From positions 1-16,416 of the forward strand of contig JAQUXG010000005.1 of the NCBI GenBank assembly GCA_028692515.1: a stretch of DNA of 16,416 nt. The letters are read 5' to 3'. The DNA is from Kiritimatiellales bacterium (GTDB lineage: Bacteria; Verrucomicrobiota; Kiritimatiellia; Kiritimatiellales; Tichowtungiaceae). Positions within the stretch are counted from its first letter, which is position 1, and each line of letters begins with the position of its first letter. The notes beneath the pieces were generated by a model. That model did no database searches, was not told the origin of the DNA, and saw nothing but the letters and a program-made list of their open reading frames with translations. Position numbers and translations under genes: made by a program. Below are positions 385 to 15,131 of the stretch, piece by piece.

Positions 385-394
385 CGTTTGACTT

Positions 395-399
395 CTCCC
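395..399 (-). promoter_or_regulatory. Ribosome binding site deciding the speA GTG start
   Basis: GGGAG on the minus strand ends 10 nt before a GTG that begins the conserved SpeA reading frame. It supports GTG rather than ATG initiation. Confidence 0.6.
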
Positions 400-455
400 G
401 TTGGTTAAAAAGTGGGCACGGTTTTACGTCCTGTGCCCCCCGTTGGAAAGCGCAA

Positions 456-474
456 TTTTCCAAACATTGGAAAA
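456..474. repeat. Palindromic repeat copy 1 (perfect arms, centre 465)
   Basis: TTCCAA-ACA-TTGGAA flanked by T and A runs. It lies between the kinase gene and speA, and its centre is 31 bp from the next copy. Confidence 0.85.
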
Positions 475-481
475 ATTATCC

Positions 482-510
482 CTGAATTTTCCAAGGATTG
501 GAAAACTCAG
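482..510 (-). terminator. Hairpin over the kinase stop codon, possible terminator
   Basis: The palindromic repeat at 487-505 is extended outward by CTGA/TCAG pairing with one G-U-type mismatch, giving about a 13-bp stem with a 3-nt loop. The kinase TGA stop (507-509) is inside the stem. No immediate U-tract follows on the minus strand; a T5 run comes about 10 nt later. Terminator function is therefore only possible. Confidence 0.35.
487..505. repeat. Palindromic repeat copy 2 (perfect arms, centre 496)
   Basis: TTCCAA-GGA-TTGGAA with T4/A4 flanks. Next to the kinase stop codon; it forms the core of the hairpin at 482-510. Confidence 0.85.
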
Positions 511-2411
511 GCGAGCACGCGGGCCAGCACTTCGGCAATTGCCTCTTTTTTTATCGGTTTGGTGATGTATTCATCCATCCCGGCGGAGATGCACTTTTCG
601 CGGTCGCCGGTCATGGCGTGGGCGGTCATGGCGACGATGGGAACTCCGGCGGCCGGGCCGGACAGTTTGCGGATTTCGCCAGCGGCCGTGTAGCCGTCCA
701 TCACCGGCATCTGACAGTCGAGCAGAACCACGTCAAAAGGCTCTGCCCGTTGCTTTTCCACAGCAAGCTGGCCGTTTTCGACCACCGTAACGTCCAGTCC
801 AAGACTGGATAGAATTTTACGGGCAACCAGCTGGTTGACCGCGTTGTCTTCGGCCAGCAGAACACGGGCGCTGAACGTTTTTGGCACAGCGGACGACGCT
901 GGCGCCACATCACACTCGCTCGAAATCGGCAATGTGATTACAAAATAGAACGTGGTTCCGGCTTCCGGCTCGCTATGCAACCCGATCCGCCCGCCCATCA
1001 TTTCGACCAGCTGCTTCGAGATCGAAAGACCCAGCCCGGTTCCCCCGAATTTACGGGTGGTCGAAAGATCGGCCTGCGTGAATTTTTCAAAAATCAACTG
1101 CTGCTGTTCCGGCAGAATGCCGACTCCGGTATCGCGAACACTGACGCGCAAGGTCACTTCCGTCGCCGACTGTCCGGTTGTTTTAATATCCACAAAAATC
1201 CCGCCCTGCCGGGTAAATTTAATGGCATTCCCCACGAGATTGGTCAGCACCTGCCGGATGCGAACTTCATCACCGACCAGACAGGACGGCACATCTGACG
1301 GGTAACGGAATTCCAGCTTCAGATTCTTGGAGAGCGCATCGGGCATGAAAATTTCATGTACGGTTTCAAAAACCCCCTGCAGATAGAACGGCCGTTTTTC
1401 CATTTCGAGCCGGCCGGCCTCGATTTTTGAAAAGTCAAGAATGTCATTTAATATGGTAAGCAGCGACTGTGCGGAATGCTGAATGGTCTCAGCCGCCCGT
1501 TTCTGTTCCGGAGCCAACTCGGTTTCCATCAGAATATCACTCATGCCAATTACACCGTTCATCGGTGTGCGCAGCTCATGGCTCATATTGGCTAGAAAAT
1601 CGCTCTTGGCGCGGTTGGCCACTTCAGCGGCCTCTTTGGCCTCCATCAGCGCGCGCGTGCGCTCTTCGACACGCTGCTCCAACCGGGATCTTGAACGGTC
1701 CAGATCTCCAATCAGCTTGTTCAGCGACTGCCGCATCGCATCCATCTGCTGCGCCAGCACACCGATTTCGTTCAACCGGCTGACCGGAACCTCCTCGCTC
1801 AGGTTCCCCTGTGAAATCTCCTCGGCTGCAGCGGAAAGCTCCTGAACCGGCATAAAGATCAGTCGGTGAGTCAAAAGAAAAGCGGCAATGGACAGACTGA
1901 CAACAACCAGAATCGTAATGACGATAATAACGATCACCTGCTGGCCCAGCTCATCCCACACATTCCGGTTGGACGCCACCAAGCGGACTTCCGCCTGCCG
2001 GCCGTCTTCAAGAGGAATCATCTTGGTGCCCTGCATATAGCGGCTTTCCGCTACCTGTTCGCGATGAACCACCCAGCCAAAACCCTGAACAACCTTATTG
2101 ATCTGCAACTCAGGTTTTTCAGGATCACCGAGCGTCACGCCGGCAAACACAATGTCACGGTCATTTAAAAGAGATTCGAGAAAATGGCTGATCGCCGCCT
2201 CATCCCGCTCCGCAACGGAATCTTCCAGAGCAATTTTCGTCAGCGAAAGCTTCTGCTCCATATTGCGCTGAATTTCATCTTCAACCGCAGTTTTCTGCTG
2301 GGCGATCAGCACCCCGGCGATCGTAAACAGCACAACGCTCACCACAATGGTCAGCACCGCCGGAAACACAAAGGACAGGCTCCGGAAAAAAGATGTCATG
2401 CGCAATTTCAT
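507..2411 (-). CDS. Hybrid sensor histidine kinase with C-terminal receiver domain
   Basis: Inner-membrane two-component sensor that autophosphorylates on histidine and passes phosphate to its own receiver. In a 634-residue reading: membrane segment ~14-38, extracytoplasmic sensor region ~40-157 (no family recognised), second membrane segment ~158-184, HAMP ~185-238, coiled coil ~240-272, HisKA with His278 in [16 protein letters not shown], HATPase with the N box around Asn395, G1 DTGVG at 427-431 and G2 GGTGLGL at 456-462, then a REC domain ~517-634 with acidic pair 521-522, phosphoacceptor Asp565 in [11 protein letters not shown], Thr596 and Lys618. No HPt domain or separate response regulator is visible nearby, so output and signal are unknown. 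Start is uncertain: ATG 2411 is chosen, ATG 2399 would also keep the first membrane segment, and an upstream TTG at 2453 is less likely. None has a good Shine-Dalgarno. The gene is divergent from purM. Confidence 0.93.
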
Positions 2412-2473
2412 ACTTCGTGGGCAGAGAATAGCCATCCGGTGTCTAAAAAACAACTGACTTGCCCCTTTTTCTA

Positions 2474-2501
2474 TTGTCCGCCGCCCTCACCGTGCTACAT
2501 T
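2474..2501 (+). promoter_or_regulatory. Candidate sigma70-type promoter for purM
   Basis: TTGTCC (2474-2479), 16-nt spacer, TACATT (2496-2501). This places the transcript start near 2508, shortly before GGAG at 2518-2521 and the purM ATG at 2529. Each hexamer matches consensus at four of six positions, so this is a fair rather than strong match. Confidence 0.4.
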
Positions 2502-2528
2502 GTGCGCCTTTCAAAACGGAGATCCCAT

Positions 2529-3560
2529 ATGGCAGCAAAAAAAAGCGCATACGCACAGGCAGGCGTCGATATCGACGTCATGATGAACTCTCTTCAGAAC
2601 ATTAAAAAAGACGTCAAATCCACCGCCACCCAAGGCGTCGTCAGCGAGATCGGCTCCTTCGGCGGCCTCTTCCGCTCCCCCGGCAAAGACTTCCTGCTCG
2701 TCGCCAGTGCCGACGGCGTCGGCACCAAGCTCAAAGTCGCTCACATGGCGAAAAAGCACAAAACCGTCGGACAGGACCTCGTCAACCACTGCGTCAACGA
2801 CATCCTCGTGCAGGGTGCCACCCCGCTCTTCTTCCTCGACTATCTCGGCACCGCTGCCCTCTCCGGAAAAATCTTCGAAGACGTCATCTCCGGCTTCTGC
2901 AAAGCCTGCCGCGAAAACGGCTGCGCGCTGCTCGGCGGCGAAACCGCTGAAATGCCCGGCCTCTACCCGCCCGGCGAATACGACCTCGTCGGAACCATCA
3001 TCGGACAGGTCGAAAAGAAAAAAGTCATCACCGGAAAAACCATCCGCAAAGGCGACGTCATCCTCGGCCTGCCCTCCAGCGGACTCCAAACCAACGGCTA
3101 CTCGCTCGCCCGCAAAGTCATCTTCGAAAAAGCCGGAAAAAAACTGAGCGACCTCGTCCCCGGCACCAAACTCACCTTCGAAAAAGCCCTGCTCGCCGTC
3201 CACCAGAGCTACCTCAACCCCGTCGTCGCTCTCATGAAAAAAGTACAGGTACACGGTATGGCGCACATCACCGGCGGCGGACTCGTCGACAACGTCCCGC
3301 GCGTTCTGCCAAAAACCGTTGATGCCGTCTTCGACCGCTCGACCTGGAAAACGCCCGCCATTTACCAGTTTATCGAAAAAGAAGGCGACATCGACCACGA
3401 AGAAATGTACCGCGTCTTCAACATGGGCATCGGCATGGTCGTCATCGTCCGCGCCGCCGACGCCGAAAAAGCCATCGCCACGCTCAAAGCCGCCAAACAG
3501 AAAGCCATCGTCGTCGGCCGCATTGAAAAAGGCACAGGTAAATCGGTTTTGATTAATTAA
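2529..3560 (+). CDS. purM: Phosphoribosylformylglycinamidine cyclo-ligase (AIR synthetase)
   Basis: Converts formylglycinamidine ribonucleotide plus ATP to aminoimidazole ribonucleotide, step five of de novo purine synthesis, in the cytoplasm. The 343-residue product matches the usual PurM length and carries the family blocks in order: FGGLFR (44-49), ADGVGTKLKVAH (61-72), DLVNHCVNDILVQGATPLFF (83-102), LLGGETAEMPG (134-144), YDLVGTIIG (151-159), GLQTNGYSLARKV (185-197), AHITGGGLVDNVPRVLP (245-261) and MYRVFNMGIGM (293-303). The start is the ATG with GGAG 7 nt upstream; an in-frame extension back to 2184 overlaps the kinase gene and has no PurM homology. Codons end in C very often (GTC, CTC, ACC, ATC), more than in the neighbouring genes. 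Monocistronic: a strong terminator follows about 20 nt downstream. Confidence 0.97.
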   Translation: MAAKKSAYAQAGVDIDVMMNSLQNIKKDVKSTATQGVVSEIGSFGGLFRSPGKDFLLVASADGVGTKLKVAHMAKKHKTVGQDLVNHCVNDILVQGATPLFFLDYLGTAALSGKIFEDVISGFCKACRENGCALLGGETAEMPGLYPPGEYDLVGTIIGQVEKKKVITGKTIRKGDVILGLPSSGLQTNGYSLARKVIFEKAGKKLSDLVPGTKLTFEKALLAVHQSYLNPVVALMKKVQVHGMAHITGGGLVDNVPRVLPKTVDAVFDRSTWKTPAIYQFIEKEGDIDHEEMYRVFNMGIGMVVIVRAADAEKAIATLKAAKQKAIVVGRIEKGTGKSVLIN

Positions 3561-3580
3561 TCAGACCTTCCGGCCACCAA

Positions 3581-3621
3581 AAGCCCCGTTTTTCCAACCT
3601 TTGGAAAACGGGGCTTCTTTT
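3581..3621 (+). terminator. Rho-independent terminator of purM built around the palindromic repeat
   Basis: Arms AAGCCCCGTTTTTCCAA (3581-3597) and TTGGAAAACGGGGCTT (3601-3616) pair with one bulged T, around loop CCT, followed by a T-rich tail to 3622. The top of the stem is exactly the dispersed palindrome. Confidence 0.85.
3590..3608. repeat. Palindromic repeat copy 3 (perfect arms, centre 3599)
   Basis: TTCCAA-CCT-TTGGAA. It forms the upper stem of the purM terminator. Confidence 0.85.
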
Positions 3622-3622
3622 T

Positions 3623-3740
3623 GAGGCTGCCAGCCTCTGGCCAGCGGCAGGATGCCGCTTCCACACTGCGGCTCCGTCGGAGACGTCGCCCTACCCGAAA
3701 ATCACATCCCACTTAGGCAGGGCGAACTCTCCGAGTAAGC
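3623..3740. repeat. Cluster of inverted repeats after purM
   Basis: Gene-free. Hairpin 3623-3637 (GAGGCT/AGCCTC), palindrome CTGGCCAG 3637-3644, hairpin 3643-3659 (AGCGGCA/TGCCGCT), then a longer imperfect inverted repeat: 3671-3692 against 3719-3740, matching at 16 of 22 positions in the pattern GCT..TCGGAGA..CGCCCT, with a 26-nt spacer. It resembles a non-coding dispersed repeat or a decayed miniature element. No transposase or target duplication is visible. Confidence 0.55.
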
Positions 3741-3771
3741 CGAATTGACGATTAACCGCCCGCCACATAAA

Positions 3772-3813
3772 CTCCAACCCGAAGTTACGGCCGTCGTTCA
3801 TTAAATGTTGGAT
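3772..3813. other. Possible attC-like site, left of the small AT-rich gene
   Basis: CTCCAAC (3772-3778) and GTTGGAT (3807-3813) form a six-base pair (TCCAAC/GTTGGA). GTTGGAT fits the integron core GTTRRRY; the left box misses RYYYAAC at its first base. Inside are GAA/TTC and the palindrome ACGGCCGT. At 42 nt it is shorter than known attC sites (about 57 nt and up), so the call is tentative. Confidence 0.25.
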
Positions 3814-3825
3814 ATGGATAAATAA

Positions 3826-4155
3826 ATGAAAGCCACAGAATACTCTTATGCTTTTGAAGCTTCATCGAATGTAATTGCCGAAGCAATTGATGCCATTGTT
3901 TTAAAAGACAACAAGATAACCTGTAGCTGGTCTGGTAACAGAAAGAAAGTGGCAATCCTAATTGATCGTTCTGTTTGGTACATGAAGAATTTTAGAGGCA
4001 AATCCGTCGTGCTTGAATTAGGAGAGAACGGAGTAGTCGATGGCGAATGTGCAGATGTATCTCTTTTCTCGATATCACGGCAGTCTGACATCGATACACT
4101 TCATAACTTGTTTAACAGCATCCGAGATAATTTAAATGAAACCCAACGGGCTTGA
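3826..4155 (+). CDS. Small protein of unknown function, possible gene cassette
   Basis: 109 residues, about 12 kDa, soluble: no signal peptide, membrane segment or recognised motif. The sequence alternates predicted beta-type stretches (KKVAILIDRSVWYM, KSVVLELGENGVV) and ends in a likely helix (DIDTLHNLFNSIRDNLNETQRA). I do not recognise the family. Its composition is about 40% G+C by eye and rich in AAT, TTA and GAA codons, unlike its GC-richer neighbours, which suggests acquisition. The start has GGA 7 nt upstream. The ATG follows 12 nt after a GTTGGAT box and the stop falls just inside an ACCCAAC-led hairpin, the arrangement seen in integron cassettes. It converges on rnc with a 44-nt gap. 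It may be a real gene or a relic. Confidence 0.6.
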   Translation: MKATEYSYAFEASSNVIAEAIDAIVLKDNKITCSWSGNRKKVAILIDRSVWYMKNFRGKSVVLELGENGVVDGECADVSLFSISRQSDIDTLHNLFNSIRDNLNETQRA

Positions 4156-4182
4156 GCCTTACGGCTGACGCCGACGTTCATC
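4141..4182. other. Possible attC-like site, right of the small AT-rich gene
   Basis: ACCCAAC (4141-4147) fits RYYYAAC. Symmetric blocks follow, AAC / GGC / AGCC-TTAC-GGCT / GCC / GTT, ending at GTT 4176-4178, for 42 nt in total. The gene's TGA (4153-4155) lies inside. The right box GTTCATC does not fit GTTRRRY, so it is degenerate or not a true site. Confidence 0.25.
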
Positions 4183-4199
4183 AGTAAACGTTCGCCGCA

Positions 4200-4889
4200 T
4201 TACTTCCCGGCGGAGGGAATGAGACAGAGGACGGCCTGAGTGGCGGCGGATTTTTCGGCTTCGCGTCGGCTGGAGCCTTCTCCGCGATAGGCGTAGGTTG
4301 AGACGGTGACTTCGACCAGATAATGACGGGCGTGATCCGGCCCGCTCTCTTCCAGCACTGTGTAATCCGGAACCCCAAAGCCTTTTTTCTGGGCATATTC
4401 CTGAAGCATCCCTTTCGGGTTTTCAAGCGTCGGCTCGGCTTTTTCCAAACATTGGAAAATATTGCGCTCAAAAAATTTCCGAGCGGCTTTGAGTCCGCCG
4501 TCCAGCCAGACCGCGCCAAGCAGCGCCTCAAGCGCGTCTTCGAGATTTGAATCGCGATCCGCGCCGCCGCTGGCGGCCTCGCCTTTGCCGAGCCGCAGGT
4601 GTTCGCCCAGTCCGAGTTCACGTGCCGCAGAGGTCAGCGCCGTGCCCGAGGTGATGGAGCTTTTCAGTCGGGTCAACTCGCCTTCGTTGGCCTGCTGATT
4701 TTTTTCGGTCAGCACGTCGGCGGCCAGCAGGCCGAGCACCGCGTCGCCAAGAAACTCGAGCCGCTGGTTGTCCAGCTCTGTCGCTGCGTTTTCGTAGCGG
4801 AACGACGGATGCGTCAGCGCGTTTTCCAGCAACGCCTTGTCTCGAAAGCGATACTGGATCCGTTTTTCCAGACTCTGGAACTTTTTCAT
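4200..4889 (-). CDS. rnc: Ribonuclease III
   Basis: Mg-dependent endonuclease that cleaves double-stranded RNA in rRNA precursors and regulatory duplexes. 229 residues, the usual length. Nuclease domain ~1-145 with signature NQRLEFLGDAVLG (41-53); catalytic acids Glu45, Asp49, Asp118 and Glu121 (in LEDALEALLGA). Linker ~145-156, then a dsRNA-binding domain ~157-222 (NPKGMLQEYAQKKG, then GEGSSRREAEKSAA). Start ATG 4889 aligns with normal RNase III N-termini; a longer reading to 4976 adds residues with no homology. Two copies of the palindromic repeat lie in the gene: FQSLEK at residues 4-9 (variant arms) and FQCLEK at 145-150, the latter in the flexible linker. The leader holds a third, imperfect copy. 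It lies divergent from the lipoprotein gene. Confidence 0.96.
   Translation of the reverse strand: MKKFQSLEKRIQYRFRDKALLENALTHPSFRYENAATELDNQRLEFLGDAVLGLLAADVLTEKNQQANEGELTRLKSSITSGTALTSAARELGLGEHLRLGKGEAASGGADRDSNLEDALEALLGAVWLDGGLKAARKFFERNIFQCLEKAEPTLENPKGMLQEYAQKKGFGVPDYTVLEESGPDHARHYLVEVTVSTYAYRGEGSSRREAEKSAATQAVLCLIPSAGK
4441..4459. repeat. Palindromic repeat copy 4 (perfect arms, inside rnc, centre 4450)
   Basis: TTCCAA-ACA-TTGGAA, read on the rnc strand as Phe-Gln-Cys-Leu-Glu in the linker between the two RNase III domains. Confidence 0.85.
4864..4882. repeat. Palindromic repeat copy 5 (variant with compensating arms, centre 4873)
   Basis: TTCCAG-ACT-CTGGAA: both arms changed, so pairing is kept. 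It encodes Phe-Gln-Ser-Leu-Glu near the rnc start. Other RNase III proteins have a helix of the same length here, so this copy could be native protein sequence. Confidence 0.5.
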
Positions 4890-4895
4890 TAAAGG

Positions 4896-4914
4896 ATTTC
4901 CAAACATTTGAAAA
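4896..4914. repeat. Palindromic repeat copy 6 (one arm imperfect, rnc leader, centre 4905)
   Basis: TTCCAA-ACA-TTTGAA. It lies just upstream of the rnc ATG and contributes the GGA that is the only Shine-Dalgarno-like motif there. Its centre is 32 bp from copy 5. Confidence 0.6.
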
Positions 4915-4964
4915 GTGAACCAGAATTTTGGAACAAAGGAAACTGCAACGCGGGATTTTATGAA

Positions 4965-4993
4965 TTTACAGAGCAACGGTAAAAGTTTATGAA
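4965..4993 (+). promoter_or_regulatory. Candidate promoter for the SHOCT lipoprotein gene
   Basis: TTTACA (4965-4970), 17-nt spacer, TATGAA (4988-4993), placing the start near 5000. The hexamers match consensus at five and four of six positions. Confidence 0.4.
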
Positions 4994-5020
4994 TCAGACC
5001 GTTAGCGAAAGGAAGTGTTC

Positions 5021-5779
5021 ATGAAAAAGCTGTGTTTTACCCTGACCCTGATCGTACTGGCCGCCGTGATCAGCGGATGTACCCATCCGATGACCGTCAC
5101 TAATCTTAACAACTATCACAACAAGACCATCGTTCAGCTCGATGAACGTCTGCGCATCGGCGTCCGCGCCAACGCCGCCGACCTCAACGGCCACCGCTTT
5201 ATTCACGCCGTCGGCCGCGATCTGCTCAAATACAATGCGCAGTGCACCACCGCCGTGGATGACAACGAATTTATCGACGTGATCGCCAACATTTCGCTGG
5301 TCTCCAAGCAGCGCGGATCGGGATGGAACTTCTGGTGCGACTTCCCCGGCTTCCTGATCTGGTTCCCGGCTTGGCACGGCTACAACTACGACTTCATGTA
5401 TGACATCGACGTGACGCTCAATGATGCCAAAACCGGCAAGCTGATCAACAGCATGTTTATTCCGGTTCGCCTTGATATCAAACATGCCGACATCAGCCGC
5501 ACCTGGGTGGATGGCGTGGCGTGGCCGACTCTCGGGGTGAGCGCCCTGTTCGGTGGTCTGCACAACATGATGTATGATCCAACCGTCACGCCGATCGTCG
5601 CGCAGGAAGTTGATCCGGTTCTGGCCGACTACGTCGCCCAGCAGATTGCCCTCAATCTGCACTACTACAAATCGGCACCGCAGGACCGTCTGGAAAAACT
5701 CAAAATGCTTCTGGATGAAAAACTCATCACGCCCGAAGAGTATGAGATGAAGCGCAAAGCCGTCGTTGAAGACCTCTAA
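5021..5779 (+). CDS. Lipoprotein with C-terminal SHOCT domain
   Basis: 252 residues. Signal peptide MKKLCFTLTLIVLAAVISGC with lipobox ISGC; Cys20 should be the lipidated residue, anchoring the protein in the inner or outer membrane. The body has an aromatic-rich stretch at ~102-124 (GWNFWCDFPGFLIWFPAWHG) followed by YDIDVTLNDAKTGKLINS, a beta-type segment. Residues 221-251 (DRLEKLKMLLDEKLITPEEY and on) match the SHOCT short C-terminal domain, usually a helical oligomerisation or interaction module. Start ATG 5021 is preferred over GTG 5015 because AAGGAAG sits 5 nt upstream. It is monocistronic, ended by a strong terminator. The specific function is unknown. Confidence 0.85.
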   Translation: MKKLCFTLTLIVLAAVISGCTHPMTVTNLNNYHNKTIVQLDERLRIGVRANAADLNGHRFIHAVGRDLLKYNAQCTTAVDDNEFIDVIANISLVSKQRGSGWNFWCDFPGFLIWFPAWHGYNYDFMYDIDVTLNDAKTGKLINSMFIPVRLDIKHADISRTWVDGVAWPTLGVSALFGGLHNMMYDPTVTPIVAQEVDPVLADYVAQQIALNLHYYKSAPQDRLEKLKMLLDEKLITPEEYEMKRKAVVEDL

Positions 5780-5796
5780 ATTCTCTTGGCATCACA

Positions 5797-5831
5797 CAAA
5801 AAGCGCTCCGATCTTCGGGGCGCTTTTTTTT
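5797..5831 (+). terminator. Rho-independent terminator of the lipoprotein gene
   Basis: AAAAGCGCTCCGA (5799-5811) pairs with TCGGGGCGCTTTT (5815-5827), with one T-G wobble and loop TCT, followed by eight T in all (5824-5831). Confidence 0.9.
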
Positions 5832-5863
5832 GACCTCTGGAATTCCTCACCCATTACCCTCCT

Positions 5864-5899
5864 GTTTTACAATATGCGCATATGCGCATATTGTAAAAC
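5864..5899. repeat. Perfect 36-bp palindrome beside the xer gene
   Basis: Half-site GTTTTACAATATGCGCAT is followed directly by its exact reverse complement, with no loop. It lies 38 bp beyond the recombinase stop codon, between convergent genes. No U-tract follows on either strand. Confidence 0.9.
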
Positions 5900-5937
5900 C
5901 GCATCATCACGAGGCTTCGAAATAAAACCGAAATGAA

Positions 5938-6825: not shown

Positions 6826-6835
6826 GGAGGAAAAA

Positions 6836-6943
6836 TACGAAATCCGAAGTACGAAACACGAAACAAATCCGAAAGCTTAAATTCGAATTTTCCAAGGTTT
6901 GAAAATTGTTTCGTGCTTCGATATTCGAGTTTCGAATTTAAAG
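6836..6943. repeat. Inverted-repeat element in the purC-xerD gap
   Basis: A-rich motif series TACGAAATCCGAAGTACGAA and ACACGAAACAA, with its inverted counterpart downstream: CGAAACACGAAACAA (6852-6866) matches the reverse complement of 6906-6920 at 14 of 15 bases. CTTAAATTCGAA (6876-6887) also pairs with 6931-6943 allowing one gap. It overlaps the purC stop codon. No coding content. It resembles dispersed non-coding repeats common in environmental bacterial genomes. Confidence 0.6.
6888..6906. repeat. Palindromic repeat copy 7 (imperfect, centre 6897)
   Basis: TTCCAA-GGT-TTGAAA: the right arm has lost a G. It lies in the loop of the larger inverted repeat between xerD and purC. Confidence 0.55.
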
Positions 6944-7825: not shown

Positions 7826-7845
7826 ATGCGGACTCCTTTAGCGGG

Positions 7846-9003: not shown

Positions 9004-9839
9004 CACTTGACCTCCTCGACATGAATATCTTCAGAAACATTTTCTTTCAGCCGGGCCTCGACCACATCTTTCAGGGTAATTTCTGAAATAATACAACCGG
9101 AGCAAGCTCCACGGAAACGCACTTTGACGATATCGCCGTTTACATCAATCAGTTCCAGATCACCGCCGTCCTGACGAAGAGCCGGGCGGATTTCGCGGTC
9201 GATCACATCTTCGATTAAATGAATTTTCTGTAAGGTCGTCATCGGCGCTTTTTCGGGTACCGCCGGTGCGTCCATTTCGGAGTGAACCCTCAACATGATT
9301 TTTTCGATATCCGGCAGGCAATTGCCGCAACCGCCGCCCGCTTTACATGTGTTGGTCAGCTCTTCCAGCGTTTGAATATTGTTTTCCCGAACGGCTTTTT
9401 CGATCTCTTTATCGGTCACACCGAAACAGTGACAAACCACATCACCCTCAAGTTCCTTATCCCACCGTTTGCCCGTGCGATAGTTATAGATCGCGGCTTC
9501 GAGCGCCTCGCGTCCCATCACGGAACAGTGCACCTTTTGCTTAGGAAGCCCGCCGAGATATTCAGCAATATCCTTGTTCGTGATCTTTTCTGCTTCTTCA
9601 AGCGTCTTGCCGAGTATCATTTCGGTCAGCGCCGAAGAGGATGCAATCGCACTGGCGCACCCGAAGGTCTGAAATTTGGCTTCCTTAATGCGCCCCTCGT
9701 CATCGAGCTTAAACATCAGCTTGAGCGCATCACCGCAAGCCAGCGAACCGACTTCACCGGTGCCGTCCGGATTTTCAATCTTTCCGACATTGCGCGGATT
9801 CTTAAAATGATCGTTTACCTTGTCTGTGTAGTCCCACAT
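9003..9839 (-). CDS. nifU: Three-domain Fe-S scaffold protein NifU
   Basis: Scaffold on which Fe-S clusters are built from NifS-derived sulfur before transfer to enzymes. 278 residues with the full A. vinelandii-type architecture: IscU-like domain ~1-125 with Cys35 (GSLACGDA), Cys61 (TFGCAS) and Cys105 (VHCSVMG); BFD-like [2Fe-2S] domain ~133-182 with Cys136, Cys138, Cys171 and Cys174; Nfu domain ~200-278 with Cys246 and Cys249 (ACSGC). All ligands are present. The start has AAGGGAG about 5 nt upstream. It is the first gene of the probable nifU-nifS-purC operon, behind a strong promoter, with nadA 80 nt upstream on the same strand. Confidence 0.96.
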   Translation of the reverse strand: MWDYTDKVNDHFKNPRNVGKIENPDGTGEVGSLACGDALKLMFKLDDEGRIKEAKFQTFGCASAIASSSALTEMILGKTLEEAEKITNKDIAEYLGGLPKQKVHCSVMGREALEAAIYNYRTGKRWDKELEGDVVCHCFGVTDKEIEKAVRENNIQTLEELTNTCKAGGGCGNCLPDIEKIMLRVHSEMDAPAVPEKAPMTTLQKIHLIEDVIDREIRPALRQDGGDLELIDVNGDIVKVRFRGACSGCIISEITLKDVVEARLKENVSEDIHVEEVK

Positions 9840-9877
9840 AAAAACTCCCTTGGAATAATGGATAAAAGGAATGCCGG

Positions 9878-9906
9878 ATTATTGGAGGTTTAAATTCCCG
9901 AGTCAA
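9878..9906 (-). promoter_or_regulatory. Sigma70-type promoter upstream of nifU
   Basis: On the minus strand TTGACT (9901-9906), 17-nt spacer, AATAAT (9878-9883). Both hexamers match consensus at five of six positions with optimal spacing; start near 9871, giving about a 30-nt leader. This means nifU-nifS-purC can be transcribed independently of nadA. I see no clear IscR or Fur operator. Confidence 0.6.
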
Positions 9907-9919
9907 CAAATCATCTTTT

Positions 9920-10822
9920 CTATATTTTCAACATCCGCTCAATTGAACCGACTGCTCTGCCGGCAATTTCCCCGGGAACCGTCACGCGATATTTCATGTC
10001 CTGAAGAGACCAGAGCACCTTTTCGAGCGTGATCTTCTTCATATTCGGGCAGACCGCCCGATCCGGATTGACTGGATAGAACGTTTTGCCCGGATTTTCG
10101 TTGCGCAGGCGGTAATTAATGCCCAGCTCGGTCGCAATAATAAACTCCTGATGATCCGATTGTTGAGCGAAGCGGCACATCTGCCCGGTCGAGAGCAATT
10201 CGTCGGCCAGGTCGCGCACCGGCTTGCTACACTCCGGATGAGCCAGCACCAGCGCGCCGGGATGCTCTTCCTTCAGCTCTAATACATCGGTGTCACGGAT
10301 GCGCTCATGCGTCGGACAAAACCCGTTATAGAGAACAAACTCTTTGCCCAGCTGTTCGGCCACAAATGAGCCAAGGTTACGATCGGGCACAAAAATAATT
10401 TTTGAATCACCCAGCGATTTACACACGGCTACCGCATTGGACGAAGTGCAGCAGATATCGCTCTCCGCCTTCACCTCGACCGGACTGTTCACATAACAGA
10501 CCACCTTCGCGCCGGGATACTCCGCCTTGAGCTGACGAACTTTCTCCGCAGTCACCATATCGGCCATTGGACAGCCCGCATCCGGATCGGGGATCAGAAT
10601 GGTTTTTTCCGGAGAAAGAATCGCGGCGGTTTCGGCCATAAAATGGACGCCGCAGAAGACCACCACTTCGTTGAGAAGTGTCGCGGCCTTACGGCTCAGC
10701 TCCAGCGAATCGCCCGTAAAATCGGCAATCGCCTGTACCTCATCCAGCTGATAGTTGTGGGCAATGATCACCGCGCCGCGCGTCTCTTTCAGCTCCAGAA
10801 TCTGCTTTTTAATCGATTTCAT
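9920..10822 (-). CDS. nadA: Quinolinate synthase A
   Basis: [4Fe-4S] enzyme that condenses iminoaspartate with dihydroxyacetone phosphate to quinolinate, for NAD synthesis. 300 residues. AHNYQLDEVQAIADFTGDS (21-39), FCGVHFMAETA (56-66), cluster cysteines Cys84 (DAGCPMADM), Cys169 (NGFCPTHERI) and Cys258 (AVCPNMKKI), plus CYVNSPVEVKAESD and AHPEC (194-198). The three cysteines sit where the family's cluster ligands are. Start ATG 10822: a longer frame from GTG 10861 reads through a CACGAA repeat and adds no homology. No Shine-Dalgarno; the leader is CTCTCCCTCA. nadB is not in the window. Its position beside nifU/nifS fits its need for a cluster. Confidence 0.96.
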   Translation of the reverse strand: MKSIKKQILELKETRGAVIIAHNYQLDEVQAIADFTGDSLELSRKAATLLNEVVVFCGVHFMAETAAILSPEKTILIPDPDAGCPMADMVTAEKVRQLKAEYPGAKVVCYVNSPVEVKAESDICCTSSNAVAVCKSLGDSKIIFVPDRNLGSFVAEQLGKEFVLYNGFCPTHERIRDTDVLELKEEHPGALVLAHPECSKPVRDLADELLSTGQMCRFAQQSDHQEFIIATELGINYRLRNENPGKTFYPVNPDRAVCPNMKKITLEKVLWSLQDMKYRVTVPGEIAGRAVGSIERMLKI

Positions 10823-10837
10823 TGAGGGAGAGTTTAC

Positions 10838-10855
10838 CCACGAATCGACACGAAT
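10838..10855. repeat. CCACGAA-type repeat upstream of nadA
   Basis: CCACGAATCGACACGAAT, related to the CACGAA repeats at 13194-13312. It lies in the nadA leader. Confidence 0.5.
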
Positions 10856-10863
10856 AAACACTA

Positions 10864-10882
10864 TTTTCCAATGGTTGGAAAA
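10864..10882. repeat. Palindromic repeat copy 8 (perfect arms, centre 10873)
   Basis: TTCCAA-TGG-TTGGAA with T/A flanks, in the nadA upstream region. Confidence 0.85.
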
Positions 10883-10900
10883 AATTGAATGATCCGGCCT

Positions 10901-10930
10901 CCTGATCTTCCAATCCTTGAAAAAATCAGG
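10901..10930 (-). terminator. Hairpin over the exchanger stop codon, possible terminator
   Basis: CCTGAT/ATCAGG arms extend palindrome copy 9, with the exchanger TGA (10926-10928) inside the stem. Same design as 482-510. No U-tract follows directly on the minus strand, so termination is only possible. Confidence 0.35.
10906..10924. repeat. Palindromic repeat copy 9 (imperfect, centre 10915)
   Basis: TTCCAA-TCC-TTGAAA. Its centre is 42 bp from copy 8, and it forms the core of the hairpin at 10901-10930. Confidence 0.6.
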
Positions 10931-11906
10931 CAGTCAGGATGAGATACGCCATATAAGCGATATACCCGCTGAGGAGCAGTGCCCCTTCCCTTCGCGAAAT
11001 ACGTTTACCAGTAAAGAAAATCGGCAGGCAGATCACGGCCGTAAGAATCATCACCGGCAGATCTGCATGCAAGGTTTGAGGCGAAACCGGAATTCCGTTC
11101 GGCGAAAGCATTCCGGCCAGACCCATAACTGCCAGCAAATTGAATAGACAGCTGCCGACCACATTACCAACGGCAATGTCGCGCTCGCCACGGATGGAGG
11201 CCACCACAGAAGTCGCCAGTTCCGGAAGAGAGGTTCCGGCGGCGACAATCGTCAGGCCGATGATCAACTCGCTGACGCCCAGCTTCTGGGCAATCATAAC
11301 CGCCCCGTCCACCAACCAGTTTGAACCCAGCACCAGCAGGCCCAGACCGGCCAAAAGCAACGCGGCATCTTTGAGCAGAACTTTTACCAAGAGAGGCTCT
11401 TTTTCTCCGTATTTTTTTTCGTATTCCGCCCGAACTGCTTTGTTTTCGCGGCGGCTCTGACGGATCAAAAATATTGTGTAGGCGATAATTCCGGCAAAAA
11501 GAATCAATCCCTCCGGCCGACCGATTATTCCATTCAGAGCGAACAGATAAACCAGAACCGACGCGCCGATCATCAGCGGAACATCCAGCCGGATCAGTTG
11601 CATCGAGACCGTTAACGGCGCGACCAGAGACGAGAGTCCAAGAATCAGCAGAATATTAAAAATATTACTACCGATCACATTGCCCAGCGCGATGCTGGTT
11701 TGACCGCTCAGCGAAGAAATTGCAGTGACCGCCATTTCGGGAGCACTGGTTCCGAAGGCCACCACCGTCAACCCGATCACCAGCGGGGAGATACCGAATG
11801 CGGCGGCCAGCTTCGAGGCCCCGCGAACCAGCGCCTCCGCGCCAAACACCAGCAAGATAAATCCGGCGACGATCAGTACTGGAGCGGAATGGATCAAATC
11901 AGTCAT
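10926..11906 (-). CDS. CaCA-family Na+/Ca2+ exchanger, copy A (YrbG-like)
   Basis: Inner-membrane antiporter that exports Ca2+ in exchange for Na+ or H+. 326 residues, about ten membrane helices in two inverted halves. Alpha repeat 1: GTSAPEMAV (52-60) and GNVIGSNIFN (75-84). Alpha repeat 2: GTSLPELATS (224-233) and GNVVGSCLFN (247-256). The ion-coordinating Thr, Ser, Glu and final Asn are kept, but the usual SN pair in repeat 2 is SC (Cys253). A charged cytoplasmic loop lies at ~150-172 (SRRENKAVRAEYEKKYGEKE). Start ATG 11906 is by match to copy B; AAAGGA lies 13 nt upstream, a long gap. It is the second of two tandem paralogues, 75 nt downstream of copy B. Specificity (Ca2+, K+ dependence) cannot be read from sequence alone. 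Confidence 0.93.
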   Translation of the reverse strand: MTDLIHSAPVLIVAGFILLVFGAEALVRGASKLAAAFGISPLVIGLTVVAFGTSAPEMAVTAISSLSGQTSIALGNVIGSNIFNILLILGLSSLVAPLTVSMQLIRLDVPLMIGASVLVYLFALNGIIGRPEGLILFAGIIAYTIFLIRQSRRENKAVRAEYEKKYGEKEPLLVKVLLKDAALLLAGLGLLVLGSNWLVDGAVMIAQKLGVSELIIGLTIVAAGTSLPELATSVVASIRGERDIAVGNVVGSCLFNLLAVMGLAGMLSPNGIPVSPQTLHADLPVMILTAVICLPIFFTGKRISRREGALLLSGYIAYMAYLILTA

Positions 11907-11981
11907 TGGTGGTACATCATCCTTTAAAAACACGTTTTTTCAACCGCAGCACAAAACCCCGGCCAAAATTCAGTGAAAAAC

Positions 11982-12974
11982 TCATCCGGTGCTGCGTGCG
12001 GTCAGGACAAGATAAGCTATATAAGCGATGTATCCAGCCAGAAATAACAGACCCTCCCGACGCGAAATGCGGCTGCCGGTAAAAAAAACCGGCAGACAGG
12101 CCGCCGCCGAAAGAATCATTACCGGAATGTCGAAATGCAAAGCCTGTAAAGAAACGGTAACCCCGGCTGGAGAGATGAGGCCGGTCAGTCCCAGCACTGC
12201 TAAAATATTAAAAATATTACTCCCGACCACATTACCAACGGCAATATCGCGCTCTCCGCGAATCGAGGCGACAACGGAGGTAGCCAGTTCCGGCAGTGAG
12301 GTTCCAGCTGCAACAATAGTCAGGCCAATCACCAGATCGCTGACACCCAGCTTCTGTGCAATGGACACCGCACCATCCACCAGCCATTTTGAGCCGAGAA
12401 CCAGCAGACCCAGTCCAGCCAGAATCAGAAGCACATCCACGAGCAGAGCGGTCAACGAGTAAGCCTTTTCCTCTCCGTACTCCTGCGCATATTCGGCCAG
12501 TACCTCTTTGTTTTCACGGCGGCTCTGGAAAATCAGAAAAACTGTATAAGCAATAATTCCGGCAAACAGCAGTCCTCCTTCCAGCCGGCCGACGGTTCCG
12601 TCCAGACAAAACAGGAAGGTCAGTATGGAAACCGCGATCATCAGGGGCACATCTATCTTGATCAGCTTCTGCGCAACAACCAGCGGCGCAATCAGAGCCG
12701 ACAGTCCAAGAATGAAAAGGACATTGAAAATATTACTGCCAACCACATTGCCCAGCGCGATGTTGGTCTGACCCGCCATCCCGGACATCGTACTGACCGC
12801 CATTTCAGGCGCACTGGTACCGAAGGCGACAACCGTCAACCCGATCACCAGCGGAGAAATTCCGAACACAGCAGCCAGTTTTGATGCGCCGCGCACCAGC
12901 GCCTCGGCACCGAACAGCAACAGAGTGAACCCGGCGATCAACAGCACCGGAGCAGAATGGAATAAATCAGTCAT
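11982..12974 (-). CDS. CaCA-family Na+/Ca2+ exchanger, copy B (YrbG-like)
   Basis: Paralogue of copy A and the upstream gene of the pair. 330 residues, the same two-half fold. GTSAPEMAV (52-60), GNVVGSNIFN in repeat 1, GTSLPELATS and GNVVGSNIFN in repeat 2: unlike copy A it keeps both SN pairs. Long identical stretches with copy A (such as VVASIRGERDIAVGNVVGS) point to tandem duplication. The cytoplasmic loop differs most (SRRENKEVLAEYAQEYGEEK). The leaders of both copies share AGGATGATG followed by CACCAATG or CCACCAATG, so the duplicated unit included about 30 nt upstream. The AGGA motif lies about 12 nt before the ATG. Confidence 0.94.
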   Translation of the reverse strand: MTDLFHSAPVLLIAGFTLLLFGAEALVRGASKLAAVFGISPLVIGLTVVAFGTSAPEMAVSTMSGMAGQTNIALGNVVGSNIFNVLFILGLSALIAPLVVAQKLIKIDVPLMIAVSILTFLFCLDGTVGRLEGGLLFAGIIAYTVFLIFQSRRENKEVLAEYAQEYGEEKAYSLTALLVDVLLILAGLGLLVLGSKWLVDGAVSIAQKLGVSDLVIGLTIVAAGTSLPELATSVVASIRGERDIAVGNVVGSNIFNILAVLGLTGLISPAGVTVSLQALHFDIPVMILSAAACLPVFFTGSRISRREGLLFLAGYIAYIAYLVLTARSTG

Positions 12975-13193
12975 TGGTGCGCATCATCCTGTAAACGTAG
13001 CTGTTTTCAATATTTTTCCAACCAAACAGAGACCCTCGATCTGCGTCAAAGGTTTTTGTACGAAAAATCATTGCTCCGTAAAAATGCGCCCACAACCCCC
13101 AGTCTGGGTAATTTTGTTACCATTAAGCAGGGAACAAATTTGACGAAGTATTTTTTTAAATCTAGTGCTTCATAAACTTAAATTATTTGGATA

Positions 13194-13312
13194 AACCACG
13201 AAATACACGAAAGACACGAAACCGTGCGGATGAGGATGTTAACCACGAAATACACAGAAAAAGAAAACCCTACATTTCGTGTGGTTCGTGTGGTTCGTGT
13301 ATTTCGTGGTTT
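13194..13312. repeat. CACGAA-type inverted repeat block
   Basis: AACCACGAAATACACGAA (13194-13211) pairs perfectly over 18 bp with 13294-13311. Further CACGAA units lie at 13215-13220 and 13241-13255, and TTCGTGTGG units at 13276-13293. Non-coding and tandem-like on both arms. It can form a long stem with an 82-nt intervening segment. Confidence 0.8.
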
Positions 13313-13345
13313 CAAAAATACTCATTAAGTTAATTTCGTATAATT

Positions 13346-13364
13346 GGCGACTGAGCTTGTCGCC
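13346..13364 (-). terminator. Weak hairpin after recJ
   Basis: GGCGAC/GTCGCC six-bp stem with a 7-nt loop, just beyond the recJ stop. It is followed on the minus strand by AATTATA rather than a U-tract, so termination is uncertain. Confidence 0.3.
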
Positions 13365-13369
13365 GGAAA

Positions 13370-15073
13370 CTATTGAGCGGGGCGGATATCGCGGATGTTG
13401 AGCTGAATGTTTGTGCGGCCGTTCCAGGTGTTTTCCTGAAGTGTGAAGGCGACATCAATCGGGCCGGAAGGAAGTTTTTCGGCTAGATTAAAGCCGATGG
13501 CCTCTCGGCTGACTTTTCCGTCGGAAAGCGTCAGCTTGCGATGTTTTTCTTTGAGGATGCGACTGTCGATGGCTTTGATCCCGCAAACGGCCCAGATCGG
13601 CTCTGGATTGTCCTGACCAAATGGGCCCGTGCGTTTCAGTCCGTCCATCAGTGCATCATCGGCTTCGCCGAGAGTCACCGCCCGGTCAATTTCCAGAACC
13701 GGAACCAGATCCGCGTCTTTAATCTGCGCAGCAACCGCTTCGTTAAAGCGGACTTTGAAAGCGTCCAGATTCTGTTCTTCGATTTCAAGTCCGGCGGCCA
13801 TGGCGTGTCCACCGAACTGCTTGAGCAGGTTAGTGCAGGAGCCTAAACCTTCGAGTAAGTTATAGCCGTCGATACTGCGGCAGGATCCGCGGCCGGAAGC
13901 GCCGTCCATACCGATCACCGCGACCGGGCGGCTGTAGCGATGAACCAGCCGCGAGGCGACGATACCGATCACGCCGGTATGCCAGCCCTCGCGGGCGATG
14001 ACGAGACCGAAGTGTTTTTCTGCATCAAAATAGGAATCGATCTCATCGATCGCTTCGCGAACCATATCTTTTTCAATGGCCTGGCGTTCGCGGTTGGCCG
14101 TGTCGAGCAGTTGCGCCAGTTCGTCGGCGCGCGCGGGCAGATCGGTGAGCAGCAGTTCCAGCGCGGCATCGGGACGCCCCACCCGCCCGGCGGCATTAAT
14201 ACGCGGGCCGAAGGAAAAACCGGCATGCCAGGTTTCGACCGACCCGGTAATTCCGGTCAGTTTTTTAAGCGCATTCCAGCCCGCCCAGCAGGAGTTTTCC
14301 AAGGCTTGGAAACCGGCGCGCACCAATACGCGGTTTTCGCCGAGCAGCGGCACCATATCGGTAACCGTAGCAACCGCGACAAAATCGAGAACCTTTTTCA
14401 GGTCAATCGTCGCAGAAATCAGACATCCATTATCGCGTCCGGTTTTAATCAGCGCATGACAAAGCTTAAACGCAACGCCCGCGCCGGCGAGAATGCGCGC
14501 CGGATGATTTGCGACGCACTTCGGGTTCACCACCGCAACTGCGCTCGCGATCTGTACACCGGGTTCGTGATGATCGGTAATGACCACATCCACTCCGGCA
14601 GCGGCAGCCTTTTCAACGGCCTCGACGGAACTGGTGCCGCAGTCGACGGTGATGATTAAAGACGGTTTGTGTTCCGCGATGCAGGCGGTCAGCGCGTCGG
14701 GCGAAAGACCGTAGCCGTCGTCGAAGCGGCTGGGAATAACCGCAGAGACATTTCCGCCGAGTTCGCGCAGAACACGCACCATGAGCGCGGTGCTGCAAAC
14801 GCCGTCCACATCGTAGTCGCCGAAGACCGTGATTTTTTCTCCGTCGGTCAGCGCGCGGCGAACGCGCGCGGCGGCTTTGTCCATATCGGGCATTTCAAAG
14901 GGGTCGCTGAGCGTGGAGAGCGCCGGATTAATGAACCGTTCCGCCTCTTCGACGGTTTTGCATCCGCGCTGAGTCAGCAGTGCGGCAAGCGGAGCGGGCA
15001 TTTTTTCCAAGGTTTGGAAAAAACGCTCTGCCAGTGCTTCATCGCACGGTTTAAATTTCCAATGTTTGGACAT
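13370..15073 (-). CDS. recJ: Single-stranded-DNA-specific exonuclease RecJ
   Basis: 5'-3' ssDNA exonuclease for recombination and repair, in the cytoplasm. 567 residues, near the usual length. DHH domain: VFGDYDVDGVCST (83-95), ITVDCGTSS (141-149), ITDHHEPG (165-172), GAGVAFKLCHAL (197-208), FSFGPRINAAGRVG (286-299). DHHA1 part with GRGSCRSIDGYNLLEGL (394-410) and FGGHAMAAGLE (420-430); OB-type C-terminus ~460-567. All metal-binding motifs are intact. Three palindromic repeat copies lie in the gene: one overlapping the start codon (read as SKHWK), one at residues 19-23 (FQTLE) and one at 255-259 (FQALE). No Shine-Dalgarno: the ATG follows T8-GAA, directly behind the secDF terminator. The N-terminal W and the helix after it fit other RecJ proteins, so the start is credible. 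Confidence 0.96.
   Translation of the reverse strand: MSKHWKFKPCDEALAERFFQTLEKMPAPLAALLTQRGCKTVEEAERFINPALSTLSDPFEMPDMDKAAARVRRALTDGEKITVFGDYDVDGVCSTALMVRVLRELGGNVSAVIPSRFDDGYGLSPDALTACIAEHKPSLIITVDCGTSSVEAVEKAAAAGVDVVITDHHEPGVQIASAVAVVNPKCVANHPARILAGAGVAFKLCHALIKTGRDNGCLISATIDLKKVLDFVAVATVTDMVPLLGENRVLVRAGFQALENSCWAGWNALKKLTGITGSVETWHAGFSFGPRINAAGRVGRPDAALELLLTDLPARADELAQLLDTANRERQAIEKDMVREAIDEIDSYFDAEKHFGLVIAREGWHTGVIGIVASRLVHRYSRPVAVIGMDGASGRGSCRSIDGYNLLEGLGSCTNLLKQFGGHAMAAGLEIEEQNLDAFKVRFNEAVAAQIKDADLVPVLEIDRAVTLGEADDALMDGLKRTGPFGQDNPEPIWAVCGIKAIDSRILKEKHRKLTLSDGKVSREAIGFNLAEKLPSGPIDVAFTLQENTWNGRTNIQLNIRDIRPAQ
14295..14313. repeat. Palindromic repeat copy 10 (perfect arms, inside recJ, centre 14304)
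   Basis: TTCCAA-GGC-TTGGAA, read on the recJ strand as Phe-Gln-Ala-Leu-Glu (residues 255-259). Confidence 0.85.
15003..15021. repeat. Palindromic repeat copy 11 (perfect arms, inside recJ, centre 15012)
   Basis: TTCCAA-GGT-TTGGAA with long T/A flanks, read as Phe-Gln-Thr-Leu-Glu near the RecJ N-terminus. Confidence 0.85.
15055..15073. repeat. Palindromic repeat copy 12 (imperfect, spans recJ start codon, centre 15064)
   Basis: TTCCAA-TGT-TTGGAC. On the recJ strand the outer end of the element is the ATG itself, giving Met-Ser-Lys-His-Trp-Lys. Its centre is 52 bp from copy 11. Confidence 0.6.
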
Positions 15074-15076
15074 TTC

Positions 15077-15112
15077 AAAAAAAACAGCGCCCCGAAGTTT
15101 CGGGACGCTGTT
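15077..15112 (-). terminator. Rho-independent terminator of secDF
   Basis: AACAGCG/CGCTGTT and CCCGAA/TTCGGG stems separated by one mismatch; on the minus strand they are followed by T8. It ends only about 4 nt before the recJ ATG, so secDF transcripts should stop before recJ. Confidence 0.88.
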
Positions 15113-15131
15113 CGCTATTACCCGTTATCGA

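Follow-up and report, generated by a model that had tools for sequence, protein, structure and literature searches.

Introduction

DNA-uptake words (the DNA uptake sequences, DUS, of Neisseria and the uptake signal sequences, USS, of Haemophilus) are short and asymmetric and are not known to be helically phased; they reach high copy number, occur within genes, leave a footprint in the proteome and are also found in terminators. The highly iterated palindrome HIP1 (GCGATCGC) of cyanobacteria is present in coding DNA and has reportedly been studied for periodicity, and the operator boxes of Lrp/AsnC proteins such as the archaeal Ss-LrpB are 15 bp long. Lrp-family proteins are described as binding in cooperative dimers whose sites share a helix face, with centres separated by two or three helical turns, and as wrapping the DNA (PMC2995911); gain by substitution has been discussed for HIP1, which is tied to methyltransferases (PMC4390886); and the palindromes of the repetitive extragenic palindromic (REP) and bacterial interspersed mosaic element (BIME) type exceed 100 copies per genome and are sometimes regularly spaced (PMC2817692). 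HIP1, the uptake sequences and the Lrp operator arrays are the nearest kinds to the subject of this report, which nevertheless differs from each: the palindrome TTTTCCAA-NSN-TTGGAAAA, found as a dispersed family in a 16,416-nucleotide stretch (the window) of a Kiritimatiellales bacterium (GenBank assembly GCA_028692515.1, contig JAQUXG010000005.1, positions 1 to 16,416). The word is probably the recognition site of a putative DNA-binding protein that would be dimeric, cooperative, genome-wide in reach and most likely architectural.

Like HIP1, the word is an iterated and over-represented palindrome, and it shares the HIP1-type properties of over-representation in genes and gain by substitution, but HIP1 has 8 bp whereas this word extends over 17-19 bp and is clustered and helically phased. 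It resembles DUS/USS in copy number, presence in genes, proteome footprint and copies in terminators, and differs from them in being palindromic, clustered and phased. The same-face spacing of two or three turns known from the Lrp/AsnC operator arrays (Ss-LrpB) is also found here; however, hundreds to more than 1,000 near-perfect copies, half or more of them in genes in two species, set the word apart from such arrays, and the single Lrp gene usual in the class is also found in site-free genomes. NrdR boxes, which are paired palindromes about 31-32 bp apart with few copies per genome and another consensus, are alike in the pairing and unlike in consensus and copy number. The REP/BIME palindromes differ in that the in-gene copies of this word are not insertions among the orthologs compared, and in that the word has no visible GTAG foot and shows no overall link to the REP-associated tyrosine transposases (RAYT). 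Six written-out forms of the word were not found in searches of the open-access literature, in which no description of a helically phased iterated palindrome, or of a Kiritimatiellia palindrome of this type, was found either.

Results

Abundance and form of the palindrome

All twelve copies listed in the first-pass annotation, which was made from the letters of the window, are present at the coordinates given there (Table 1), seven of them exact matches to TTCCAA-N3-TTGGAA and five with one or two mismatches. The chance expectation given there was about 0.001, whereas dinucleotide-preserving shuffles yield 0.01 exact copies; the 12 copies with at most two mismatches compare with 1.02 expected from such shuffles, and in 0 of 200 shuffles of the window were 7 exact or 12 near copies reached. 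In the genome that contains the window (G000; 1.81 Mb in 288 contigs, 86% complete, with the window as contig 32), the pattern occurs 609 times and the reversed control pattern 0 times; the family had been staked on a genome-wide count above that expected from composition, and with 609 copies against none it therefore withstands that test. Chance is rejected on the shuffles together with the genome count.

The three central bases, which had been thought to vary freely, do not: 600 of the 609 copies have C or G in the middle position, and the centre is therefore N-S-N. The same holds for 1,319 of 1,339, 542 of 567 and 584 of 595 copies in the relatives G048, G009 and G003, respectively. In samples from G000 and G009, T is preferred at positions ±8 and ±9 and the profile is near background by about ±13, the symmetry being confined to about 17-19 bp.

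Three interpretations had been offered for the family at the outset: a binding site for a nucleoid protein or global regulator, a processed RNA hairpin, and a mobile palindrome of the REP or RPE (Rickettsia palindromic element) type. The first is favoured by three findings set out below, namely the helical phasing, the clustering and a selection that acts on the word as DNA, whatever the protein encoded, whereas the other two are not sustained. An RNA hairpin or terminator element would accord with copies 2, 3 and 5 of the window, which coincide with terminator-like matches, but such matches occur in the window at chance level (26 versus 23.6 in shuffles), and the symmetry ends at about ±9 bp, with pairing beyond at background in the site classes tested in three genomes. 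Hardly any additional pairing is found: five or more extra contiguous pairs flank 3 of 87 sites in G000, 0 of 97 in G009 and 0 of 40 in G048. Furthermore, many copies lie inside genes, and the 10.5-bp phasing is a matter of the DNA duplex and counts against a hairpin in RNA, an origin that must be regarded as exceedingly improbable. The paired change in both arms of the copy centred at 4873, which had been taken as a sign of preserved pairing, is no evidence of pairing in RNA: the copy is part of the rnc coding sequence (FQSLE), and the change consists of two synonymous codons, CAG instead of CAA and CTG instead of TTG; the same locus reads TTCCAG...TTGGAA, with one arm changed, in the relatives G010, G003 and G009.

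Restriction to one class

Counts in 58 relatives, G000 included, range from 0 to 1,339, with the maximum in G048, compared with 0 to 3 for the control pattern, and each of the 14 genomes of the genus of G000 holds 62 to 793 copies. In a sample of 144 genomes from the phylum, all at least 90% complete except G000, at least one NSN copy is present in 27 of the 47 genomes of the same class (up to 1,319 copies) and in 16 of the 97 genomes outside it, where the largest count is 4; among the genomes sampled, the word is restricted to one class. The 80 loci listed from at least 116 stretches in a scan of public sequence for phased pairs carry mostly the names Kiritimatiellae, Kiritimatiellales, Verrucomicrobia and so-called Lentisphaerae (metagenome-assembled genomes), and a few titles among these listed matches say otherwise (Spartobacteria, Firmicutes). 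No gradient of sites between origin and terminus is evident by eye in G009 (3,882,676 bp in one contig, 53.0% G+C as measured in 800 kb). A switch to another palindrome was considered for the site-poor relative G007 and rejected, as TTCCAA-N3 is still the top palindrome in 390 kb of that genome, with several weaker ones behind it.

The preferred central triplet varies by lineage, being GCC in G048 and ACA or TCA in G057 according to counts, and TCA in G104 and G125 as judged by eye; the linker length (31 versus 32) is lineage-dependent as well, in the manner of dialects of one word. Where a genome has a total of only 2-5 copies, phased pairs (loci L017, L028 and L030) adjoin genes that by eye are restriction-, nuclease- or nucleotidyltransferase-like, which suggests that these pairs beside defence-like genes were imported from site-rich relatives. 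No ancestral operator was revealed by the three pairs in these very site-poor genomes.

Helical phasing and clustering

Four close pairs of copies in the window, overlooked in the first-pass annotation, are 31, 32, 42 and 52 bp apart, near multiples of 10.5 bp. The analysis of spacing covered four samples: from G000 the window and 40 contigs (286,080 bp), from G009 a 20-kb stretch in every 100 kb, 40 in number (800,000 bp), and from G048 and G057 164,765 bp and 124,958 bp, respectively. The G009 stretches and most of the G000 contigs were chosen blind to sites. This does not apply to the window, to two of the G000 contigs or to the G057 stretches, all ten of which were selected for the presence of sites. 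With at most one mismatch allowed, pairs 16-260 bp apart were scored as in phase when within 1.5 bp of a multiple of 10.5 bp; the p values assume independent pairs, and the gaps between neighbouring sites form the more independent set.

Close copies sit at multiples of about 10.5 bp (22, 31/32, 42, 52/53, 63 bp and so on), both in and between genes. For G000 and G009 together, 97 of 111 pairs are in phase where 31.7 are expected (phase strength R 0.79, Rayleigh p about 2e-30), and the phasing is found whether both sites lie in genes (40 of 45 pairs, R 0.83), one does and one does not (8 of 11) or neither does (49 of 55, R 0.77). Without the 30-33 bp class, 67 of 81 pairs remain in phase (R 0.74, p about 7e-20). 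When the window and the two contigs picked for their sites are excluded, 90 of 104 pairs are in phase, or 62 of 76 when the 30-33 bp class is removed as well; for neighbour gaps the figure is then 70 of 79, against 22.6 expected (p about 1e-22). G009 with its site-blind stretches gives 44 of 47 neighbour gaps in phase. Without these exclusions, all four genomes together give 140 of 150 (42.9 expected). Among 14 periods tested, 10.5 fits best, and period 3 reaches an R of only 0.10, so that codon periodicity is not the cause of the phasing. Taken singly, G000 is fitted best by a period of 10.4, and G048 and G057 by one of 10.5 or 10.6. Phase strength declines with distance, from R 0.88 at 16-60 bp to 0.74 at 120-200 bp and 0.52 at 200-300 bp, and is weak beyond 300 bp. 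The sites are also strongly clustered: of 180 gaps between neighbours in G009, 37 do not exceed 70 bp, compared with 3.4 expected. The site-poor G007 offers 3 close pairs in 390 kb, too few for the phasing test.

Longer arrays extend this pattern. Triples with linkers of 16-17 bp are found in 39 of 288 genomes of the class, representing 25 of 113 genera, with 0 for the control pattern, and many site-rich genomes, G009, G018 and G019 among them, have no such triple. Loci from the triple search have 31/32-bp steps by construction; the steps that fall outside the range of that search (22, 30 and 62 bp) are all in phase. Arrays of the family f27 have 22-bp steps at both ends (22-30-31-31-31-22 in L309, 22-31-31-30-22 in G104:C3 and 22-31-30-22 in G122:C7). 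The spacers of G048 are mostly unrelated (mean identity 0.29, maximum 0.83, n=15), and the spacing there was therefore not simply copied.

Phased pairs or arrays of the word are also present on the phage (IMG/VR) contigs L148, L149, L150, L151 and L328, which were found by a search for such pairs. On L148 and L149, which are parts of one contig, arrays flank a small lipoprotein-like gene on both sides, and both L148 and L151 encode a small protein resembling a helix-turn-helix (HTH) protein, with NUMOD-like matches that are weak and below the cut-off. In the fetched sequence no relative of this HTH-like protein was found outside its contigs, and a viral scan matched its own contig only; the protein stands as a possible lead to the binder.

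Sites inside genes and their footprint in proteins

Genes were predicted with a simple hexamer caller written for this analysis rather than with a standard tool. Compared with the expectation from the coding fraction, exact sites lie in genes in 47 of 94 cases in G000 (80.8 expected), 73 of 103 in G009 (91.5), 6 of 44 in G048 (39.4), 0 of 27 in G057 (24.2) and 10 of 11 in G007 (9.8). Compared with a null in which synonymous codons are shuffled within each gene, the in-gene sites are in large excess: 47 versus 0.79 in G000 and 73 versus 1.05 in G009, a 60- to 70-fold surplus, as well as 6 versus 0.05 in G048 and 10 versus 0.35 in G007. The word is thus under selection as DNA, to a degree for which codon use does not account.

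In frame 0 the word reads FQxLE. This peptide occurs 31 times in the sampled G000 genes, 26 times with the exact site codons, where nine control peptides occur 0 or 1 times each; the corresponding numbers are 58 with 28 exact (controls 0-6) in G009, 25 with 8 exact (controls 0-3) in G007, and 2 with 1 exact (controls 0-1) in G048, whose sites are mostly intergenic. The surplus FQxLE peptides written with other codons in the site-poor G007 (71 copies) look like fossils of former sites.

A comparison of orthologous loci had been proposed together with the family, and for the in-gene copies it speaks against insertion, with one insertion-like case. Among 37 comparisons of in-gene sites between reciprocal orthologs of G000, G009 and G007, in which pairs seen from both sides count twice, 6 could not be aligned, 1 has a gap in the site and 30 are gapless, 12 of these being exact. 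In recJ, the start-proximal site (copy 11) is exact in 7 of 12 aligned species, G000 included, and the GFQxLEN site in 5 of 12, with copy 10 exact at the same codons in G012, G003, G009 and G001; the remaining species differ by substitutions, partly synonymous, and are gapless except for G006. From the gapless comparisons and the recJ substitutions it follows that in-gene sites are gained and lost mainly by substitution. The exceptional recJ of G006 (L217) carries a coding insertion of ~52 bp with a GC-rich inverted repeat, which ends in a second palindrome 52 bp from the first. In a recJ tree of 12 rows, with 4 of 9 inner branches open and one long branch, site-rich species stand both outside and among the site-poor ones, a pattern that favours, though it does not prove, a loss of the system in the site-poor species.

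These results bear on three further explanations. A palindrome spread by a RAYT-type transposase, as for REP, or by RPE-like in-frame insertion would explain the high copy number, the lineage-specific variation and the second copy gained by the G006 recJ; RAYT-family genes are found in 51 of the 58 relatives, and their number is correlated with that of the sites in the family f2 (rho 0.49, p 0.007, 29 genomes). Against it, 30 of 31 alignable ortholog comparisons of in-gene copies are gapless. Across all 58 relatives, the number of RAYT genes is not correlated with that of the sites (rho 0.18, p 0.19); within the genus of the window the coefficient is negative (rho -0.46, p 0.09, 14 genomes), and for the remaining genomes it is -0.06. 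G057 combines 111 sites with 0 RAYT matches, and G048 1,339 sites with 2. The GTAG foot, which is listed for most REPs (PMC2817692), is not visible in the site profile, and a mobile origin is accordingly very unlikely. A by-product of methylation or mismatch repair, an origin that has been discussed for exceptional HIP sequences of some cyanobacteria (PMC4390886), would likewise yield an iterated palindrome in coding DNA that is gained by substitution, but it predicts neither helical phasing nor clustering nor intergenic arrays with set linkers, and little credence can be given to it.

More can be said for a DNA-uptake signal of the DUS/USS kind, in which a surface receptor would read the word during natural transformation and biased uptake with recombination would lead to its accumulation. 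The copy number in the hundreds, the occurrence both within and outside genes, the gain by substitution, the FQxLE footprint, the copies in terminator-like hairpins and the patchy counts among relatives are all in its favour, and ComEC is found in 54 of 58 relatives and in 35 of 35 of the well-completed ones. On the other hand, the word is palindromic, strongly clustered and helically phased, and ComEC is equally present in site-free genomes, so that its near-universal presence does not discriminate. This explanation is considered unlikely.

Placement relative to genes

Sites occur in convergent, tandem and divergent intergenic regions. The genes flanking clusters are generic; many of the loci examined had been retrieved on account of the pairs in them. 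For 210 of the 413 genes the cluster is upstream, which indicates no promoter preference. No recurrent regulator was found beside the clusters among the 413 proteins that flank 222 non-identical clusters, the small upstream genes having been read by eye as well. A gene of the Rrf2 type recurs among the small proteins and was rejected as a candidate, its nearest near-match lying 135 bp upstream at one locus and at least about 890 bp away at the other four.

Operators of an ordinary, large transcription-factor regulon would have the palindromic form and the phased pairs that are observed, and the start of one Lrp-type gene, in L074, is preceded by a phased pair at a distance of about 134-166 bp. 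Such a regulon is nevertheless difficult to reconcile with ~600 exact copies in 1.8 Mb, with the fractions of sampled sites inside genes in G000 and G009, and with the absence of a promoter preference, convergent and tandem regions of G000 having equal shares (15 sites each); it is judged quite improbable.

Features of the window

Gene names in the window (Table 1) derive from NCBIfam matches for 10 proteins. Elsewhere, in the G009 locus L261 (15497-17330), 29 copies of the GC-rich palindromic unit CCACGC-N4-GCGTGG recur with a period of 64-66 bp, an arrangement resembling an array of clustered regularly interspaced short palindromic repeats (CRISPR).

Table 1. Copies of the palindrome and other features in the window.
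Feature	Positions	Core	Match	Centre	Location	Remarks
Copy 1	456..474	458-472	exact	ACA	intergenic	31 bp from copy 2
Copy 2	487..505	489-503	exact	GGA	intergenic	in terminator-like hairpin 481-511, - strand
Copy 3	3590..3608	3592-3606	exact	CCT	downstream of purM	in terminator-like hairpin 3581-3616
Copy 4	4441..4459	4443-4457	exact	ACA	inside rnc (- strand)	reads FQCLEK
Copy 5	4864..4882	4866-4880	2 mismatches		rnc N-terminus	reads FQSLEK, CAG/CTG codons; 32 bp from copy 6; coincides with terminator-like match
Copy 6	4896..4914	4898-4912	1 mismatch		immediately upstream of rnc	
Copy 7	6888..6906	6890-6904	1 mismatch		between xerD-like and purC genes	
Copy 8	10864..10882	10866-10880	exact	TGG	between nadA and calcium/sodium antiporter gene	42 bp from copy 9
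Copy 9	10906..10924	10908-10922	1 mismatch		same intergenic region as copy 8	
Copy 10	14295..14313	14297-14311	exact	GGC	inside recJ (- strand)	reads GFQALEN
Copy 11	15003..15021	15005-15019	exact	GGT	inside recJ near start	reads FFQTLEK; 52 bp from copy 12
Copy 12	15055..15073	15057-15071	1 mismatch		overlaps recJ start codon	reads MSKHWK
Palindrome of 34 bp	5865-5898		perfect		intergenic	ttttacaatatgcgcatatgcgcatattgtaaaa
Tandem antiporter genes	10926-12974					two calcium/sodium antiporter-type genes, the first by family scan, the second alike by eye
Repeats	13190-13310				intergenic	type accacgaaatacacgaa, unrelated to the palindrome

Discussion

A cooperative dimer acting on one face of the DNA would best account for symmetric words that are helically phased within genes as well as between them. 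A putative sequence-specific protein would read the palindrome as a dimer, and neighbouring sites two, three or more whole turns apart would be bound cooperatively on the same helix face, in a working manner like that of the Lrp-type proteins; such a protein would be expected to bind TTTTCCAANSNTTGGAAAA duplexes specifically. An architectural role is suggested by how many sites there are and by their placement without regard to the orientation of genes, and most likely the protein would bend or wrap DNA as a nucleoid-associated protein rather than switch a small regulon.

Several observations weigh against this reading. The architectural role is suggested by the number and placement of the sites, and by these only; the intergenic preference varies widely, from 0 of 27 sites in genes in G057 to 73 of 103 in G009; several arrays of G057 share units, and part of the spacing there therefore arose by duplication; and no binding protein was found, the Lrp/AsnC, NrdR and DtxR families not tracking site number.

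The individual candidates were rejected on the following grounds. An Lrp/AsnC gene is present in 52 of 58 genomes, mostly as a single copy and including site-free ones, and the HTH region of Lrp is similar in the three site-free genomes examined (G030, G039 and G047). Of 30 Lrp loci, a set that excludes the G000 and G009 genes, 28 show no near-match within 300 bp upstream, two of the 28 (L330 and L353) being not properly assessable; the other two, L358 and L359, carry one each, at -69 and -49, respectively. NrdR is likewise found in 52 of 58 relatives, site-rich and site-free alike. The operator of the DtxR/MntR type has 19 bp and a C/G centre, and DtxR has no match in the site-rich G000, G001, G013 and G048 and is matched in the site-free G045, G051 and G055.

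A bolder extension, which is possible but doubtful, is that of a sequence-addressed chromatin, in which a class-specific putative protein would occupy a palindromic address that recurs at intervals of a few kilobases, up to 1,339 times, and would wrap the DNA into particles at clusters. These particles would have a set geometry, for example steps of 22-31-31-30-22 bp over about 105-170 bp, and selection for the address would suffice to rewrite codons and amino acids throughout the proteome, with peptides left behind as fossils after loss of the protein.

Most of the well-known bacterial nucleoid proteins have a loose binding specificity, and the genome described here apparently carries a record of exact addresses in helical phase, hundreds in number, from which the binding sites of a putative global DNA-binding protein would be readable; this protein may shape the chromosome. 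The G009 assembly appears to come from a cultured isolate, which would bring the protein within reach. The word is also a clear case of a signal at the level of DNA that shapes protein sequences, and the site-rich (G000, G001, G003, G009, G010, G013) and site-poor (G005, G007, G008) species within one genus may form a natural series of loss.

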